33,108 nt of DNA, taken from the NCBI GenBank assembly GCA_011390205.1, contig JAABSX010000045.1:1-33108 (forward strand), given 5' to 3'. Positions 6,275 to 33,108 of the stretch are shown here, one piece after another. Numbering within the stretch: the first letter of the stretch is position 1; each line of letters begins with the position of its first letter. The notes beneath the pieces are model-generated. The model worked only from the letters and a program-made list of their open reading frames with translations, made no database searches and was not told the DNA's origin. This DNA comes from Microscillaceae bacterium (GTDB lineage Bacteria > Bacteroidota > Bacteroidia > Cytophagales > Microscillaceae). Position numbers and translations under genes: made by a program.

Positions 6275-8443
6275 ATGCAATTACCCTTCAATAAAATACG
6301 CTCTAAATACCAGTTTTACTCCCTCTCACTGGTGCTGCTTGCCGCAGGTTTAGGACTGCTGTTTTATGTATATACTTTGCGCATAGACGAATACCACACT
6401 TACCAAAGCCAGCTCAACAAACTCCCACTCATCTATGCCAAAATCCATCAATCTACACAAAGATTTCAGAGTGAAGAGTCCAATACTATGCGTTTTCTCA
6501 GTACTGGAGAAAGCAAATATTTAGATGAATATGAGCAGAATTTTCGCCGTTTTGAAAAAGCCTTAGAAGCCCTCTTACCCAGTGCTGTCTCAGGGATGCT
6601 ACAAAAATCAGAAAATTTAAAACAACTTGATAGACACCTCAAACAACACAGAAAGTATCTTTATGAGCTTGTAAATAAAACCAAACAACTCGGCAAAGAT
6701 GACACAGGCCTAGAAGGAGGTATCAAGAAAGAACTTATCAGACTAAAATCCTCTGACATTATCACGGCAGCGCAAATGCTGACACTTCAAAAGTATAAAA
6801 ATGATTTTTTGATTTACAAAAATCCTGAGTCTATCAAAAATCTTAAAACAGAGACACACAGTATCTTAGATGAAATAAGCCTCCGTATCAATCTGGAAGA
6901 TAGCACAGGCAGGGCAAAAATGGCATATGCCGTACACAGCATAGAAAAATACAAACACAGTATTGATAGACTCCTTGCTGCTCACCAAGAGATAGGGCTC
7001 AATATGCAAGAAGGCCTGCAAGCAAAAATAAATAAAGAACATCAATACATTGACCATCAGCTCACTCTGCAGCAAGAAAATGCCGAAGCTAGCATCGCAC
7101 TACTTATCAAAAAATCTAAATCCTTTATCTGGACTATTTTCTTGATTACTTTGATGATTACAATTTTACTCTCCTTAATCATCTCCAAAATAGAAAGTAA
7201 TGCTATAGTAGGGCTAGACAGAATCACAAAATCTCTCAGAATGGGTATCCGAAATCAAGAAAAATTGCTTAACCACAATATATTCAAACGCAATGATGAG
7301 ATAGGAAGTATTGCCAGAAACTTTCAGTATTTTATTGCCAAATTTAAGAAAGCTCTAGGGCAAATCACAGAAAAAAATCTAAAGTTAGAAGAAGTAGCAC
7401 AGCAAGAAAAATTAAGAAAATGGCATACAGAGGGGATGAATCTTATGAAAGATATCTTCCGAAAAAATTATCAAAATCCTGAGCAACAATCTTTTGAAAT
7501 CATCTCAGAACTGGCAAAATACACCCACAGCCAGCAGGGAGGGCTTTTTGTTATGCACCCAGAAATCAAAGAAAAACTCGAACTCAAAGCTTGTTATGCC
7601 TATGAAAGACAAAAATATAGAAAGAAAACCATTGAAATGGGAGAAGGACTTGTAGGCACAGCTTGGAAAGAAAATAAAACCTTGCTCATCACTGATATAA
7701 TCCCTAATTATGCTTATATCACTTCATCTCTTGGCAAGACAGCCCCCAACTCCCTGCTGCTGATTCCGCTAAGAGTAGAAGATAAAGTAGTGGGTGTCAT
7801 AGAGTTAATGTCTTTAAAGCCTTACCAAAAACACGAAATAGAATTTATAGAAAACGCTGCTACACGCATCGCCAACGCAGTAATAGCCACACAAGCCAAT
7901 GAGCAAAATCAAACGCTTCTCAAAAACACAGAACAACTTGCCAAAGAAGCCCAAGAAAAAGAAATGAAACTACAAGAGCAAATCAAAAACTATCAATACT
8001 GGCTAAAAGAATTTGAAAATAAACTCAAACAATCCACAGATAGCCAAGAAGTTTATCAATCTATCCTCCACAAAATGTACAAAGGAATGATTGTAACCAA
8101 TGAAAAATTTCGAATCATTATGGTCAATAATTTTATCTTAAAAAGATTCAATCATCAAGAAGAAACACTCTTAAACCAGCCCTTAGAAAATCTCTTAGAC
8201 ACTGATTATGAAAATATCCTTGACCTCAGAGAAAGCAAACTAAAACTCAACACGCCTACTTTTGATAAAAATCTGAAAAGCAGAATCATAGACCAAAAAG
8301 GCAAAACCATTGCAGTAGAAAGTATCTCCGGTAAACTAGAAATTGAAGACAAAGTAGTCTATGTATTTCTGATTAATGAACAAAAAACAGACAGTGCCGC
8401 ACAACAAAATAATGGCAACTCCCAACTGAAAGTAGCTAGCTAA
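6275..8443 (+). CDS. Membrane sensor protein with HAMP-GAF-PAS and no output domain
   Basis: About 722 residues. Numbering from the alternative GTG start at 6251 (8 residues longer): transmembrane helix 1 at 23-43, a long helical periplasmic region of about 250 residues, transmembrane helix 2 at 292-312, HAMP-like linker 313-375, GAF domain about 390-548 (GEGLVGTAWKE near 464-474, LLLIPLRVEDKVVGVIELMS 502-521), coiled coil about 550-600, and a PAS-like fold about 605-710 (GMIVTNEKFRIIMVNN). No histidine kinase, cyclase, GGDEF, phosphatase or MCP signalling tip is visible, and the protein ends soon after the PAS domain. It may signal through a partner protein. I chose the ATG at 6275 because it places MQLPFNKIRSKY as a short basic cytoplasmic tail; GTG 6251 cannot be excluded. 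It stands alone between yebC and the cassette. Confidence 0.85.
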   Translation: MQLPFNKIRSKYQFYSLSLVLLAAGLGLLFYVYTLRIDEYHTYQSQLNKLPLIYAKIHQSTQRFQSEESNTMRFLSTGESKYLDEYEQNFRRFEKALEALLPSAVSGMLQKSENLKQLDRHLKQHRKYLYELVNKTKQLGKDDTGLEGGIKKELIRLKSSDIITAAQMLTLQKYKNDFLIYKNPESIKNLKTETHSILDEISLRINLEDSTGRAKMAYAVHSIEKYKHSIDRLLAAHQEIGLNMQEGLQAKINKEHQYIDHQLTLQQENAEASIALLIKKSKSFIWTIFLITLMITILLSLIISKIESNAIVGLDRITKSLRMGIRNQEKLLNHNIFKRNDEIGSIARNFQYFIAKFKKALGQITEKNLKLEEVAQQEKLRKWHTEGMNLMKDIFRKNYQNPEQQSFEIISELAKYTHSQQGGLFVMHPEIKEKLELKACYAYERQKYRKKTIEMGEGLVGTAWKENKTLLITDIIPNYAYITSSLGKTAPNSLLLIPLRVEDKVVGVIELMSLKPYQKHEIEFIENAATRIANAVIATQANEQNQTLLKNTEQLAKEAQEKEMKLQEQIKNYQYWLKEFENKLKQSTDSQEVYQSILHKMYKGMIVTNEKFRIIMVNNFILKRFNHQEETLLNQPLENLLDTDYENILDLRESKLKLNTPTFDKNLKSRIIDQKGKTIAVESISGKLEIEDKVVYVFLINEQKTDSAAQQNNGNSQLKVAS

Positions 8444-8914: not shown

Positions 8915-9735
8915 ATGGAAAATCAACAACAACTCCTCATTAAAACTCAATTTCAAGACCTTACACTCACTATCAAACCAGATGAAACTCACGAATGGCT
9001 CATAGAAACCAAACTCGTGGCAGAGGGCTAGGGGTGAGTGAAAGTACTCTATGCTCTGTTAAAAATAGACATCAAGATGAACTGATAAAAGGTAAACATT
9101 TTATTAGCGTTGCAAATTGCAACGCTAATCCAAGGGCTGGAATCCCACACATTCAAACCTTCTGGACAAAGCGAGGCGTAATCCGTTTAGGCTTCTTCAT
9201 TAAATCAGCAAGGGCAAAGCCATTCAGAGATTGGGCATAAGACTTGATTGTCAAGCATTTAAGCCCAGATAATCAACCTGATAAAGCAGATTTATTAGAA
9301 GCCAAAATGCACCAATACCCTGATGCACTCAATACGAAAATCAATAAAAATCACACAGAAATCAAAGAACTTATCCACAATCTAAGCAAACGTGTGGATA
9401 AACTAGAAAATAAAAGAGCCCTAGCCCTAAACTCCAGCCCAAGACCCTCTTATGTCTATCTCATCAGAAAAGTAGGCACAAACGAATACAAAATAGGCAA
9501 AAGCATTGACCCTGAAGCAAGACTAAAACTCTTTAAACAAGGAGGTACGGAAGCAGAATCCATCCTCATCATTGAATTTCCCAATGATGAAACAGCCTTT
9601 TTGTGGGGAAAAACACTCCAACACACCTCCAAAAATCTACGATTGCAAGGAGATTGGTTCATCTTGCAAGCTGCAGATGTAGAGATGATTAAAAAAATAT
9701 CAGAGACATTTGAAGGATTTTATGACCAAAAATAA
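8915..9735 (+). pseudogene. Broken antirepressor (BRO-N-like)/T5orf172 gene, cassette copy 1
   Basis: Starts with MENQQQLLIKTQFQDLTL, nearly the same as the intact paralogue at 31589-32425, also at DNA level. One base is missing after 9030 (ggcta-ggggtgag here, ggctatggggtgag in the paralogue), which creates an in-frame TAG at 9029-9031. In the shifted frame homology continues (GVSEST ... WTKRGVIRLGFFIKSARAK) to a nonsense TAA at 9238-9240, where the paralogue has Glu in DWAEDLI. After that the frame stays open to 9735 with the coiled coil and the T5orf172/GIY-YIG-like domain (SYVYLIRKVGTNEYKIGKS ... LQGDWF). Restoring one base and the Glu codon gives 273 residues, against 278 in the paralogue. 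The 3' part from a TTG at 9244 or an internal ATG near 9307 could still be translated as a separate domain. Confidence 0.88.
9371..9401. other. Inverted pair of perfect DnaA boxes inside the pseudogene
   Basis: TTATCCACA at 9371-9379 and TGTGGATAA at 9393-9401, 22 bp from start to start. They encode the Leu-Ile-His-Asn and Arg-Val-Asp-Lys parts of the coiled-coil linker. The same arrangement occurs in both paralogues. Confidence 0.7.
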
Positions 9736-17127: not shown

Positions 17128-17209
17128 GCGGATGTGGCGAAATTGGTAACCGCACTAGACTTAGGATCTAGCGCCGCAAGGCTTGGGGGTTCGAGTCCCT
17201 TCATCCGCA
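17128..17209 (+). tRNA. tRNA-Leu, anticodon UAG
   Basis: Perfect 7-bp acceptor stem (GCGGATG 17128-17134 with CATCCGC 17202-17208) plus discriminator A. The anticodon stem CTAGA/TCTAG encloses the loop CTTAGGA, anticodon TAG, reading CUA. A long variable arm and the T-loop GGTTCGAGTCC fit the leucine class. The 3' CCA is not encoded. Confidence 0.97.
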
Positions 17210-24316: not shown

Positions 24317-24471
24317 AAATGCCTTCATTCACCATAAATCTCTCTGGTCTGGGAAAGTTAAAATTATTTAAAACCCAAAGAAAAAATACAACTTATCAAG
24401 GATTATTAAGATTTTTTTAGAATTTTGGTTTGATTACTCAAAAATATCAGAAGTCAAAACCAAAATATATC

Positions 24472-26199
24472 ATGACAAACACAGTGATACACTGGCAGCA
24501 GTACGCATGGATAAGCAAAATTACTTTATTCTTTATAGGACTGAATAGTTGGTTTTTAATAAGCTGCTCTAACCAGATGCAGCCTGATGGAGGGCCCAAA
24601 GATAGCTTACGCCCTTTCGTCAAGAATAGTATCCCGAAAAACCAAAGTACACAATTTAAAGGGCAAAAAGTAATCATAGAGTTTAATGAATGGGTCAGAG
24701 AAAAAAATATCAGGCAAGAACTCCTCATCACACCTCCCAACACTAAATACACCCACAAAATCATCAAAAACAGGGTAGAAATCATATTTGAAGAACCCCT
24801 CAATGAAAATACCACTTACAGTCTTAATTTTAGAGAAGCCATAGAAGATATTACCGAGGGCAATAAAGCCCTCATAGACACCCTCAGCCGAATCCCCCTC
24901 AAAATAGCCTTTAGCACAGGAGAAGTCATTGACTCTATGAAAATAGCAGGGGAGGTAAAAAACCGACTAAGCAACAAACTACTCGAAAAAGCAACCATCG
25001 CGCTCTACCGCACAGATGATACACTCCAGATTGATGAAGATGCCCCCTACTACTACACCATCACTGACAAAGAAGGCAAATTTAGACTAGAAAATATCAA
25101 AGCAGGAGAATATAAAGTGTATGCCTTCTTAGATAAAAATGGCAATAATAAATATGATGAATCAGAAGCCATTGACTTCTACGCACAAGCCACAAGGCTC
25201 AGTGCAGACAGCGCCGACCTAAGAGGCTTGGTTTTTAAAATAGCTCCCGAAGACCATACAGCACCCAAAATAGAATCGAAAAGTAACTCAGATACTGGCT
25301 ATGAAGTACTTTTTGATGAAGGACTACAGCAGCTAGATATAAAACTCATCAACGATACCGAACTCACAAAACTGTACTACCAGCTCAAAAACAAAGGCAA
25401 AACCATTGAATTCTATAATCCGCAAAGCTTCTATGATAGTATCCGTGTAGAACTCAAAACAAAAGACTCAGTAAATAACCTTTCTCAGCACGAGATTAGC
25501 TTTGCTTTTAAAAAACCCGAAGAAGAACGCCGAAACCGAAACCGCAAAGACAAAGGTATATCCTCCTCTGCACTTGGTTTTGACATCAAATCTGCAGGAG
25601 GAACAGGCTTCGAGAAAGATTTTGAACTCAGTATAGAGTTTGAAAAACCCGTCAAACAAAGTTATTTTGAAAAACTGACCTACATCCCCGATGATGACAG
25701 CAGCCGCATCAGCATCTTATTGACACGAGACAGCACAAGGTTTTATGAATGGAACAATACCCAAACTGAGTTAAAAATCAAGTATCCCCGATTCCCATTC
25801 AATAAAAAAATACGAATCTTGGCAGATACGGCCGCTTTCATTTCTATCTTAGATGACTCTAGCAAGGCGTTTAGTAAGGTGATTGAGCGAAAAGATATTG
25901 GGGATTTTAGCAGTATTTATGGGCAAATCAGTACACAAGAGGCAAACTATATCCTACAATTACTTGACGAGAAAGGCAGCATCTTATCTCAAAGAATAAA
26001 TCCAATAAAATATGATTTTAACTACCTCCGCCCTGGCACTTATCAGCTCAGAATCATCATAGATACTAACCAAAATGGCAAATGGGATGCCTCCGACTGG
26101 CTCAATAATGTGCCAGCAGAAGAGATTATTTTTCCTAGCATTCCCAATGAAGGCAAGCTCAGAGAACGCTGGGATATAGAGGCTTTGATTGAATTTTGA
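24472..26199 (+). CDS. SbsA Ig-like (Big_5) lipoprotein
   Basis: 575 residues from the ATG at 24472; a TTG frame start at 24430 is less likely. The signal peptide ends in the lipobox LISC, with the lipidated Cys at residue 32, followed by SNQMQPDGGPKDS, a pattern common at the start of Bacteroidota Ig-like lipoproteins. Then comes an SbsA Ig-like domain (FNEWVREKNI ... PLNENTTYSLNF) and beta-rich regions with Ca-loop-like motifs DKNGNNKYDESE and DTNQNGKWDASD. An Arg/Lys-rich spot (RRNRNRKDKG) sits in the middle. Predicted outer-membrane lipoprotein, facing the periplasm or the surface. Function unknown. It follows mtgA by 155 bp and ends about 25 bp before the DnaA-box cluster. Confidence 0.88.
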   Translation: MTNTVIHWQQYAWISKITLFFIGLNSWFLISCSNQMQPDGGPKDSLRPFVKNSIPKNQSTQFKGQKVIIEFNEWVREKNIRQELLITPPNTKYTHKIIKNRVEIIFEEPLNENTTYSLNFREAIEDITEGNKALIDTLSRIPLKIAFSTGEVIDSMKIAGEVKNRLSNKLLEKATIALYRTDDTLQIDEDAPYYYTITDKEGKFRLENIKAGEYKVYAFLDKNGNNKYDESEAIDFYAQATRLSADSADLRGLVFKIAPEDHTAPKIESKSNSDTGYEVLFDEGLQQLDIKLINDTELTKLYYQLKNKGKTIEFYNPQSFYDSIRVELKTKDSVNNLSQHEISFAFKKPEEERRNRNRKDKGISSSALGFDIKSAGGTGFEKDFELSIEFEKPVKQSYFEKLTYIPDDDSSRISILLTRDSTRFYEWNNTQTELKIKYPRFPFNKKIRILADTAAFISILDDSSKAFSKVIERKDIGDFSSIYGQISTQEANYILQLLDEKGSILSQRINPIKYDFNYLRPGTYQLRIIIDTNQNGKWDASDWLNNVPAEEIIFPSIPNEGKLRERWDIEALIEF

Positions 26200-26224: not shown

Positions 26225-26735
26225 AAAAATGTGGATAACTTTGTGGATAAACTTACATCTTTTCCACATTAACACAAAAACACCTGTGGATAAAATCACT
26301 TTGGCATAGCAGCCCAAAAAAATCGATATCCACATTTCATCAAAAATCTGTGGATAAACCCCCTCTTTTTTGTGGATAAACCCCCAAGTTATCCACTTCG
26401 AGGGTGGATAACTTGGGGATAATTATATAGAGCTTTTTGAGACTGTGTATAATCCACAAGTTATGCACTAGTTATACACCTTGTTATCCACCATAAACGT
26501 TGACTTATCCACGCTTATATATTGAGCAATCTTTGAATAATGACTGTGGATAAATATGTGGATATGTTTGTAACTGCTTATTTAACAGAAACTTAATATG
26601 TTAATAATGATTAGCAAAATATGCTCTTCAATACATATACTTGGTATTTCCAAAGTTATCCACGCCATGATGACAATGACCATTTATATATATAAAATAT
26701 AGTCTTTAATGATTAGAAGGCTTTAAAAAAATGCT
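26225..26735. other. oriC: Probable chromosomal replication origin (oriC)
   Basis: Six perfect DnaA boxes (TTATCCACA or its complement) at 26230, 26242, 26285, 26349, 26371 and 26545. A further ten sites differ by one base (26260, 26326, 26389, 26403, 26444, 26450, 26484, 26505, 26557, 26656). All sixteen lie within about 435 bp in a gap without genes. The left half is mostly in the TGTGGATAA orientation, the middle right mostly in the other. AT-rich DNA follows (about 26577-26650 and TTTATATATATAAAATATAG near 26684-26703), a candidate unwinding element. In Bacteroidota oriC is commonly not next to dnaA, so the lack of dnaA or dnaN here is no objection. A plasmid-like or DnaA-titrating site is the main alternative. 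Confidence 0.9.
26382..26418. repeat. 15-bp inverted repeat holding two DnaA boxes
   Basis: CCCCAAGTTATCCAC (26382-26396) and its exact complement (26404-26418), separated by 7 bases, in the middle of the cluster. Each arm carries an 8-of-9 DnaA box, so the two boxes face each other across the symmetry axis. It could form a cruciform or a DnaA dimer site. Confidence 0.85.
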
Positions 26736-26840: not shown

Positions 26841-28670
26841 ATGCATGCACACAAGATTATTTTTCTGACGCTCATTCTAGCATTCACAGCACCTGCTATT
26901 CGGGCACAGGGGGATGCCCAGAATTTAGAACTTGCCGAAGAATATTTTGGAAGGCAGGAGTATGACAAAGCGACCGAACTCTATGGCAAAATAGCCAACA
27001 ACCAACAGTACCTGCCCATCATCTATAAAAACTACCTACTTAGTCTGTTTAAGCTCGAAGATTTTAAGGAATCCGAAAAACTTATCAAAAAACTCAACAA
27101 GCAAGAACCACAAAATCCCATCTATGCTATTGACTATGGGCTCTGGTGGGAGATGCAAGGCAAAGCAGACAAAGCAAAAAAAGAATACGAAAAAGTAATC
27201 AGTGATTACAAAAAGATAAACACCAATGTCATACGGGCTGCAGAACATTTTCTGAAAATCCAACAAAATCAACTTGCCCTCGATATGCTGGCAGCAGGAC
27301 GAAAAAGCGACTCGAACCCCGCAGCTTTTGCTCTAGAAATGGCAGAAGTCCATAGAATACTAGGGCAACCCGATAAAATGATTGAAGAATACTTACTCTT
27401 TGCCATCCAAAGTCATAACAATGCCGAGCAAGCCAAAGGACTCTTGCAAGATAGGCTTACCAAAGCCGAAGATTTTGAGAGGCTAGAGCAAGTCTTGCTC
27501 ACGCAGCTTCAAAAAGATGCCCGTGAAGTGACTTACAATGAACTTTTACTGTGGCTTTATATCCAGCAAAAGAGGTTTTACAGGGCTTTTATACAAGCCA
27601 AAGCACTTGACAAAAGATACCGATTAGAAGGAAGCGAACTTTACAGCATTGGGCTTATCAGCATGCAAAATCATGATTATAAAAGTGCACAGACCATCTT
27701 TGAATATATCATAGAAACCTACAAAGGAGGTGAATATTACTCACAAGCACGCAGCCAATATATCAAAGCAAAAGAGGAGGTAATCAAAAGCACTTATCCG
27801 CTAGACCTTGCAGAAATACGCTCACTTATATCTGATTATCAGTTACTTATAGCTGAACTCGGGAAAAATTATCGTACTTTTGATGATATTAGAAGCATGG
27901 CACAGCTCCATGCTTTTTATCTCAATGAAAAGGATACGGCTATCCAAATTTTAGAAGAAGCCATACAGCTAGGCAGAGGCAGGAATGATTTTGTGGCAGA
28001 ATGTAAGACAGACTTAGGAGATATTTATTTGCTCAAAAATGAGCCATGGGAAGCCACACTTCTCTACTCACAAGTAGAAAAACTCAAGCCCGAGCACCCA
28101 CTAGGTTATGAAGCAAAGCTCAGAAATGCCAAGCTATCTTATTACAAAGGCGATTTTGAGCTTGCACAAGAGCATCTTGATATTCTTAAAGAAGCTACCA
28201 CACGCGAAATAGCCAATAATGCCATGGAGTTAAGCCTGCTTATTAGAGATAATCTTTTATTTGATACCACAGGTACCGCTTTGAGAGAGTTTTCCCAAAT
28301 TGAGCTTACACTGTTTCAACATGATGACGAAAAAGCCCTCAAAGATTTAAAAAATATGCTCACAGACTACCCAAAACACAGCATCAGAGATGAAGTACTC
28401 TGGAGAAGGGCAAACCTACTCTTGAAAATGTCAAAACCAGAAGAGGCATTGATTGATTTGGAGAAGATTATCACAGAATATGCTGAAGATATTTGGGGGG
28501 ATGACGCCCTCTTTTTGATGGGTAAAACCTATGAAGAAACACTCAAAAACAAGGATAAAGCCCAAGAAATCTATAAAAATCATTTGCTCAAATACCCAGG
28601 AAGTATCTACACGGCAGAAGCCCGAAAAAGATTCAGAACATTGAGAGGTGATTTTGTGGAGATACGCTAA
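26841..28670 (+). CDS. Secreted tetratricopeptide-repeat protein
   Basis: 609 residues. A signal peptide (IIFLTLILAFTAPAIRA, about residues 6-22) is followed by Gln23. The rest is helical with many TPR-like units, for example LAEEYFGRQEYDKATELYGK (31-50), QGKADKAKKEYEKVISDYK, LISMQNHDYKSAQTIFEYII, NEPWEATLLYSQVEKLKP and NKDKAQEIYKNHLLKYPGS. The last units resemble those of YbgF/BamD-type periplasmic scaffold proteins, with the typical YPGSIYTAEARKRF end. No enzyme motif seen. Likely periplasmic protein-protein scaffold; partner unknown. First gene to the right of the origin, transcribed away from it. Confidence 0.9.
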   Translation: MHAHKIIFLTLILAFTAPAIRAQGDAQNLELAEEYFGRQEYDKATELYGKIANNQQYLPIIYKNYLLSLFKLEDFKESEKLIKKLNKQEPQNPIYAIDYGLWWEMQGKADKAKKEYEKVISDYKKINTNVIRAAEHFLKIQQNQLALDMLAAGRKSDSNPAAFALEMAEVHRILGQPDKMIEEYLLFAIQSHNNAEQAKGLLQDRLTKAEDFERLEQVLLTQLQKDAREVTYNELLLWLYIQQKRFYRAFIQAKALDKRYRLEGSELYSIGLISMQNHDYKSAQTIFEYIIETYKGGEYYSQARSQYIKAKEEVIKSTYPLDLAEIRSLISDYQLLIAELGKNYRTFDDIRSMAQLHAFYLNEKDTAIQILEEAIQLGRGRNDFVAECKTDLGDIYLLKNEPWEATLLYSQVEKLKPEHPLGYEAKLRNAKLSYYKGDFELAQEHLDILKEATTREIANNAMELSLLIRDNLLFDTTGTALREFSQIELTLFQHDDEKALKDLKNMLTDYPKHSIRDEVLWRRANLLLKMSKPEEALIDLEKIITEYAEDIWGDDALFLMGKTYEETLKNKDKAQEIYKNHLLKYPGSIYTAEARKRFRTLRGDFVEIR

Positions 28671-31588: not shown

Positions 31589-31603
31589 TTATGTGGCTTT
31601 TTT
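31564..31603. terminator. Hairpin at the 3' end of cassette copy 2
   Basis: AAGCCACATA and CTCAT (31564-31578) pair with 31584-31599 apart from one bulged T; loop AATCA; six T's follow on the plus strand. The stop codon of the minus-strand gene (31589-31591) lies within the stem. The T-run favours termination of plus-strand transcripts. Confidence 0.7.
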
Positions 31604-32425
31604 AATTTCATAGAAATCATTAAAAGCTACTGAGATTCCTCTGAGTAGTTCTACTTCTTGTGGAGAGAATAAAAACCATTCTCCTTTTAGGTTGAGGTCT
31701 TTAAAGGTTTTTTGCAGGGTTCTTTCCCAAAGTAGTGCCATGGCTTCATTTGGAAATTCAATAGTAAGGATAAGTTTCGTGTCTGTACCCGCATTCTCAA
31801 AGGCCCTAATTCTATCAAGTGGGTCATTGCTTTTTCCAATTTTATATTCATTCGTGCCTATCTTGCGGAAGAGATACATATATGATTTTTGTTCTTCGAG
31901 CTGATGAGGGAAGAGCATAAATTTCTCCAACTTATCCACACGATTGCTTAGATTGTGGATAAGTGATGTGAGTTCTATATGATTCTTATCAATTTTCTTC
32001 TGAAGCATTTCATACATCGCACTCATGTACTGATGCATTTTAGCCTCTAGTAAATCTACTTTATCAGTTTGCTTATTTTTCTCTAATTCTCTGATAATCA
32101 GGTCTTCCGCCCAATCTCTGAATAACTTTGCCCTTGCTGATTTGATGAAAAAGCCTAGACGAATTACACCTCGTTTTGTCCAGAAGGTTTTGAGAGAACC
32201 ACCTTGTCCTACGGTGTCGGTATTTTCGACACCGATAAAATGCTTGCCATCTGTTAGTTCATCTTTATGAAGTCTTTTATGATCTCTAATAGTACTTTCA
32301 CTCACCCCATAGCCTTCGGCTACAAGCCTAGTTTCCATGAGCCATTCGTGGGTTTCGTGAGGTCTTACATAGAGGGTAAGCCCTTCAAATTGGGTTTCGA
32401 TGAGGAGTTGTTGTTGATTTTCCAT
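31589..32425 (-). CDS. Antirepressor-type (BRO-N-like) protein with C-terminal T5orf172/GIY-YIG-like domain, cassette copy 2
   Basis: 278 residues. The N-terminal domain (about 10-115) has the pattern of phage antirepressors: VAEGYGVSESTIRDH (35-49), DGKHFIG, TFWTKRGVIRLGFFIKSARA (80-99), FRDWAEDLI, close in form to the end of BRO-N domains. A coiled-coil linker follows (115-168, with LIHNLSNRVDKLE). The C-terminal domain (about 180-255) fits the T5orf172/MUG113 branch of the GIY-YIG superfamily: YMYLF, YKIGKSNDPLDRIRAF (Arg205) and KGEWF (Glu249). BRO-N/KilA-N fusions to T5orf172 are known from phages and large DNA viruses. It follows the HTH gene by 73 bp on the same strand, likely as its antagonist. 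The nuclease activity of this branch is unproven. Confidence 0.88.
   Translation of the reverse strand: MENQQQLLIETQFEGLTLYVRPHETHEWLMETRLVAEGYGVSESTIRDHKRLHKDELTDGKHFIGVENTDTVGQGGSLKTFWTKRGVIRLGFFIKSARAKLFRDWAEDLIIRELEKNKQTDKVDLLEAKMHQYMSAMYEMLQKKIDKNHIELTSLIHNLSNRVDKLEKFMLFPHQLEEQKSYMYLFRKIGTNEYKIGKSNDPLDRIRAFENAGTDTKLILTIEFPNEAMALLWERTLQKTFKDLNLKGEWFLFSPQEVELLRGISVAFNDFYEIKKAT
31932..31962. other. Inverted pair of perfect DnaA boxes inside cassette copy 2
   Basis: TTATCCACA at 31932-31940 and TGTGGATAA at 31954-31962, 22 bp from start to start, in the coiled-coil part of the reading frame. Confidence 0.7.
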
Positions 32426-32730: not shown

Positions 32731-33108
32731 TTATCTGAATTTTTCAAAGGTACGAGCAATTGCTACAAAGAAAGCTACATCTTCTTCTGTGAGTAAAAAC
32801 CACTCCCCTTTGATTCTTTTGTCTTTGAAATAGGTTTTAAAAGTATTTTCCCATAGCAGTGCTTGTTGCTCTGATTCAAGCGTAAAGTAATCTACTAGTT
32901 CAAGGTCTTCGCCAGCTACTTCAAGTTCTTTTCGTCTTTTGCTAGGGTGAACGCTTTTGCCGAATTTATGTATGTGTGTGTCTATTCTTCGCATAAGGTA
33001 GGTAGAGGCTTCTCTTTGTTCTGTTTTTTGAGGGAGTAAAGTAGGGTTCTCTAACTTATCCACACGAGTAGCTAGATTGTGGATAAGTAGCATTACCTCA
33101 GCATGGTT
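32731..33108 (-). CDS. T5orf172/GIY-YIG-like protein, cassette copy 3 (5' end outside window)
   Basis: The frame is open to the window edge (126 codons including the stop). The first visible residues, NHAEVMLLIHNLATRVDKLE, align with NHIELTSLIHNLSNRVDKLE in copy 2, so the ATG at 33093 is internal and the gene continues upstream, probably with an N-terminal antirepressor domain. The visible C-terminal domain reads STYLMRRIDTHIHKFGKSV, HPSKRRKELEVAG and IKGEWFLL, a T5orf172/MUG113-type domain. The first GIY-YIG tyrosine pair is changed (TYLM, HKFG in place of YMYL, YKIG). It is followed by the HTH gene of copy 2 after 31 bp and is probably co-transcribed with it. Confidence 0.82.
   Translation of the reverse strand, partial: NHAEVMLLIHNLATRVDKLENPTLLPQKTEQREASTYLMRRIDTHIHKFGKSVHPSKRRKELEVAGEDLELVDYFTLESEQQALLWENTFKTYFKDKRIKGEWFLLTEEDVAFFVAIARTFEKFR
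33056..33086. other. Inverted pair of perfect DnaA boxes inside cassette copy 3
   Basis: TTATCCACA at 33056-33064 and TGTGGATAA at 33078-33086, again 22 bp from start to start and in the same part of the protein frame as in the other two copies. Confidence 0.7.

Follow-up and report, generated by a model that had tools for sequence, protein, structure and literature searches.

Positions 26230-26731 of the DNA analysed here very probably form a chromosomal replication origin (oriC). This reading, already advanced in the original prediction, is supported by the density of DnaA boxes in the gap, by the genome's densest group of perfect boxes, by a position and polarity conserved beside a TPR gene in relatives, and by a flip of GC skew at the homologous site of the genome G067. 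The window, by which we mean the whole stretch analysed, is one entire contig (C64, 33,108 bp) out of the 124 that make up the 4.51-Mb draft genome, and the features of the candidate origin are collected in Table 1.

The DnaA-box cluster

Allowing up to one mismatch, TTATCCACA occurs 31 times in the window, compared with 10.0 ± 3.1 in dinucleotide shuffles, and 0 of 100 shuffles reached 31. Over the length of the cluster only 0.13 boxes of this quality would be expected (Poisson P of at least 17, about 10^-29.6), and the perfect ones, at 26230, 26242, 26285, 26349, 26371 and 26545, all lie on the minus strand. The gene-free cluster described beforehand is thus real in extent and placement, and Pfam agrees with the Ig-like and TPR identities that had been given to its flanking genes. 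Sixteen boxes had been counted there; the six perfect ones stand, the ten one-mismatch boxes become eleven, and the overlap of the one-mismatch boxes at 26444-26452 and 26450-26458 may explain the difference.

Table 1. Features of the candidate origin and its flanking genes, in window coordinates
Feature	Position	Strand	Remarks
Ig-like protein gene (LIP), left flank	24430..26199	+	Pfam PF13205 Big_5, E 6.7e-12
Cluster of 17 DnaA boxes (putative DnaA platform)	26230..26664 (435 bp)	.	6 perfect TTATCCACA and 11 one-mismatch boxes
Second AT-rich stretch	26590..26639	.	1.34 percentile of stability; between boxes at 26557 and 26656
Last box, TTATCCACG	26656..26664	+	Points at TPR gene; proposed start of strand opening
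Degenerate trinucleotide repeat, ATGATGACAATGACC	26667..26681	+	Preceded by 2-base spacer; resembles relatives' DnaA-trio-like repeats
Proposed DNA unwinding element	26682..26731	.	AT-rich; no other 50 bp of the gap are less stable; duplex stability at the 0.06 percentile of the window
TPR protein gene, right flank	26841..28670	+	Pfam TPR_6, E 1.2e-11; constant neighbour of the box cluster

Genome-wide, where perfect boxes only were scanned, 64 are found in the draft assembly, and the six that fall within 324 bp at this gap make it the densest cluster; a denser one elsewhere, which would have spoken for another locus, was looked for on this basis and none exists. Box-like words might conceivably build up by chance in such DNA, gap and box both being AT-rich. 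The shuffles refute this, as does the presence of clusters in this position in 29 of the 60 genomes compared (below), and the reversed box pattern yields 33 matches genome-wide against the 64 of the true pattern; we regard chance accumulation as having next to no probability. The second perfect-box group of the genome is three boxes in 55 bp on contig C11 (L033, G000:C11, 2031-2085), at the end of what we take, by eye, to be a trpA-like gene and upstream of a presumed hisI-like gene.

Position relative to dnaA

A single match to dnaA was found, on contig C115 (11 kb), where no 500-bp stretch holds more than one box at up to one mismatch. The candidate origin therefore lies away from dnaA, as had been claimed, in agreement with the available text of PMC4755523, from which it is already known that Bacteroidetes origins are commonly far from that gene. 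The origins of Prevotella intermedia and other Bacteroidetes treated in that text are likewise remote from dnaA and were predicted from DnaA boxes and skew; the likeness drawn here is one of description, and the portion available names no TPR neighbour. Relative to bacterial origins with R-type boxes more widely (Escherichia coli, Bacillus subtilis and the predictions in DoriC), the gap shares a cluster of TTATCCACA in an intergenic space with an AT-rich unwinding element and differs in that it is not of the type adjacent to dnaA, in having the TPR gene and, in part, the Ig-like gene as neighbours, and in its 17 boxes.

Conservation upstream of the TPR gene

The TPR protein is present in 83 of the 96 genomes searched, the present one included, and the DNA around its gene was compared in 60 of these 83, counting perfect and one-mismatch boxes over the 1 kb upstream. 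Between 6 and 27 boxes were found there in 29 genomes, drawn from 8 of 14 families, and 0-4 in the remaining 31, among them 5 of the 13 members of the present family; the comparison of this gap in related genomes, which had been proposed as a check, thus bears out the cluster in about half of the sample and fails to do so in the rest. Families with TPR-side clusters are f1 (the present family, 8/13), f4 (2/6), f5 (5/5), f9 (2/2), f11 (4/4), f17 (1/1), f18 (4/5) and f22 (3/3), and those without are f2 (0/6), f3 (0/1), f10 (0/1), f13 (0/5), f15 (0/5) and f20 (0/3). Beyond the 29, G065 (f4) carries eleven TTATTCA cores in place of standard boxes. The sole distant named relative from the contig scan, a Polaribacter MAG with 30% identity, shows no cluster.

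A homologue of LIP lies on the opposite side, within 1.5 kb, at 15 of the 29 box-bearing loci (the present one included) and at 7 of the 31 others, and none was found within the 15-18 kb examined in G067, G042 and G004. For these reasons the TPR gene is taken as the constant neighbour and LIP as a partial one, with the full order of the window, LIP-boxes-TPR-gmd-fcl, kept in G009. Neither neighbour had been recognised as an origin marker in the original prediction; within this order the TPR gene is usable as one, and it supplies a sequence address for the origin in those 8 of the 14 families sampled. With the address fixed in this way, origin, box and initiator can be compared in their evolution between families.

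The same conservation bears on two other explanations. The gap could belong to a plasmid, a second replicon or a mobile element and not to the main chromosome, since the contig, at 33 kb, is a short one that terminates in copies of MUG113/T5orf172-type genes. That contig, however, also bears what we take from the translations to be purA, relA/spoT, tig, clpP and clpX, and the arrangement is common to several families and sits on a single 9.0-Mb contig in G018 and on a 4.1-Mb contig in G067, so that an extrachromosomal origin appears very improbable. Sites of the datA or DARS kind and DnaA-controlled promoters likewise bear DnaA boxes, and promoter control would be expected to place boxes ahead of a single conserved gene in genome after genome, as is seen here; the gap might thus be a DnaA-titrating or regulatory site, perhaps a DnaA-controlled TPR promoter, with the origin elsewhere. 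Against this the genome has no denser cluster of perfect boxes, and the evidence of polarity and of skew is given next.

Polarity and the proposed unwinding element

AT-rich DNA had been noted beside the boxes, and the proposed unwinding element is indeed among the least stable DNA of the window. The cluster adjoins it with a fixed polarity, which speaks against a titrating or regulatory site: the 50 bp of lowest stability lie on the TPR side of the boxes in 24 genomes out of the 25 tested, G086 being the exception. These 25 are the 29 box-bearing loci minus G012, G037, G046 and G070. Of 27 loci displayed, 26 show a box in forward orientation, or a word resembling one, followed by a short spacer, a trinucleotide repeat (e.g. 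CTAATAATAACAATAA, and ATGATAATAATAATA in relatives of the same family) and then the least stable DNA; these 26 segments were chosen by eye, and none was seen in G007. A profile built from 19 other loci, one per genus with the window excluded and a choice of remaining loci that was not blind, has its best match in the window at 26656-26703 (12.2 bits, E 0.011), the second match reaching 5.0 bits (E 2.5).

This order of parts resembles that of the basal unwinding system (BUS), which in the available text of PMC8287927 likewise runs in one direction from box through short spacer and trinucleotide repeat into AT-rich DNA, and for which the rule is given there as three or more 3'-NAN-5' trios no farther than 16 bp from a DnaA box. 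The window differs in that the middle-A trios are interrupted at box 26656, where the run is of two and the strict rule fails, and that rule was dropped as a label for the window. Runs of 3-5 trios accompany 7 of the 17 window boxes, box 26656 not among them, where the chance rate is about 44%; at the element itself they occur in 17 of 26 genomes against the same 44% by chance, and in 16 of 26 against 20% when the spacer is held to 5 bases. By analogy, the box-repeat element resembles the BUS in how it may work, and we do not class it as one.

GC skew

Plain GC skew of 20-kb samples was of no use; it tracked gene direction and was therefore replaced by skew at fourfold-degenerate sites with a coding-strand correction. 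In G067 the best change point over 0-520 kb lies at 266.9 kb, with a 95% set of 256.7-271.3 kb and a gain of 46.7 relative to no switch, and the cluster, at 261.6-262.1 kb, falls inside that set; the mark tested, 260.8 kb, lies roughly 1 kb from the cluster and its fit falls short of the best by 0.76. On the coarse map of G067, with the circle set to 4.7 Mb for a contig of 4.11 Mb, the cluster (261.8 kb) outdoes 100 of 100 grid origins. This switch of skew at the homologous site also speaks against a titrating or regulatory site, which we consider improbable despite the want of a significant flip in the window.

Other genomes give a less favourable picture. In G012 the skew peak falls at the cluster (162,558) and is not significant, the gain being no more than 2.1 and the 95% set covering almost the whole contig, and in G005, of the present family, the peak at 236 kb is 26 kb from the cluster, which the 95% set excludes. 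A site at 3.86 Mb is favoured over the cluster at 3.67 Mb in G018 (gain 7.9 against 3.4, with 0.3 for dnaA), and one at 2.26 Mb over the cluster at 2.06 Mb in G049 (15.6 against 8.0); grid origins fitting better than the cluster number 27 of 100 and 17 of 100, respectively. In the window itself a switch at 26.5 kb is right in sign and not significant on 22 genes, and uncorrected cumulative skew changes direction at about 30 kb. The absence of a significant flip in the window, the skew of G005, G018 and G049, the lack of significance in G012, the 31 of 60 genomes lacking the cluster and the failure of the trio rule at box 26656 all count against the origin reading.

The records of both G049 and G050 start at dnaA, although the G049 cluster is far off and dnaA has no positive skew fit in G049 or in G067 (where it lies at 2.05 Mb). 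That G049 cluster consists of 12 perfect boxes at 2,058,889-2,059,576 (L252 about 6890-7577), 2.06 Mb from dnaA and far from the TPR gene as well; neither LIP nor TPR was matched within the 16 kb examined. It lies between a gene that we read as glutamate dehydrogenase and another gene. We treat it as a candidate relocated origin; if it is an origin, then the origin has moved in family f2.

A possible mechanism of initiation

If the gap is oriC, what is known of oriC biology suggests how it may operate. DnaA, encoded at a distant gene, would fill the 17 boxes and then presumably grow out from box 26656 in the direction of the TPR gene, covering the trinucleotide repeat next to that box. It would open the AT-rich segment 26682-26731, and two helicases could be loaded there.

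Box changes and DnaA residue 438

At the same address some relatives carry other boxes: 15 copies of TTATTCACA in G051, with TTATTCA cores also in G065, G098, G099, G102 and G086, 6 copies of TTATCAACA in G060, and TTTTCCA cores in G038 and G092. The DnaA recognition helix was compared in 57 genomes (residues numbered by E. coli equivalent), of which the 33 with at least 4 copies of a core box were counted and 24 set aside, including G046 and G073 (Val, mixed boxes). All 22 genomes with TTATCCA or TTTTCCA have Ile at position 438, and 10 of the 11 with TTATTCA or TTATCAA have Ser, Thr or Val there (8 in f4, 2 in f18). The discordant genome, G006, has Ile with four TTATCAA cores and no cluster (1 box at up to one mismatch in 1 kb), and G078, in f4, has Ile at 438 with 21 TTATCCA cores.

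There is precedent for such a pairing in Epsilonproteobacteria, many of which, in the part of PMC5043019 available, have T5 in the box and Ser438 in DnaA. The same source gives weaker binding of Helicobacter pylori DnaA to the C5 box and indifference to base 5 for the DnaA of E. coli and Mycobacterium tuberculosis, and because of this indifference a simple rule joining residue 438 to base 5 is disfavoured. Family f4 is alike in pairing T5 with Ser438 (e.g. G051, G065, G098 and G102), often with Lys at 432; the change here differs from the published one, as far as that text goes, in lying inside one order with the origin neighbour kept, and in f18 having Val and an altered box position 6 as well. 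The present genome, with C5 in the window boxes and Ile at 438, is outside the epsilonproteobacterial type.

It is conceivable, and to us slightly short of an even bet, that within one order the origin address has stayed constant beside the TPR gene while the boxes changed from TTATCCACA to TTATTCACA (f4, some f18) or TTATCAACA (f18, G060), and that Ile at DnaA residue 438 gave way to Ser, Thr or Val in step with the boxes, this residue determining which bases are preferred at positions 5-6. On the tree there are two independent pairs on well-supported branches (three on all), of which one is concordant and one shows no difference; since two such comparisons are too few for significance, the association is a lead and not a test. 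If true, the epsilonproteobacterial correlation would have recurred independently in other bacteria, with the origin address held constant. A fixed address also reduces the question of how DnaA selects its box to a few swaps, residue 438 against base 5.

Further box drift is possibly to be found in G017, G036 and G100 (f4; L025, L026 and L212), whose LIP-TPR gap is without TTATCCACA boxes and whose DnaA has Gln for His at residue 434. TTGTTCA and TTATTCA are weakly enriched in the gap of G017 and G036, and the boxes of all three genomes look decayed or replaced. Neither a TPR-side origin address nor a box change at a fixed address was found in the literature titles and abstracts searched, and some of these origins may already be listed as predictions in DoriC. 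The address across families and the lineage-specific box changes with residue 438 are thus apparently new, the box changes amounting to very few independent events.

Other features of the contig

All six perfect boxes of the window outside the candidate origin belong to three inverted pairs, TTATCCACA-N13-TGTGGATAA, at 9371-9401, 31932-31962 and 33056-33086. Each pair lies within an ORF, and both of the ORFs scanned carry a MUG113/T5orf172-type domain; the pairs may be either a coding repeat or a DnaA-titrating site. Two adjacent ORFs (8995-9240 and 9244-9735, together 8995-9735) resemble by eye a disrupted copy of the gene at 31589-32425, of which a further part-copy occupies 32731-33093 at the contig end, as if the repeated gene had halted assembly there. 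At gathering threshold Rfam matches the window only once, at a tRNA gene (17128-17209) between the relA-like and tig-like genes.
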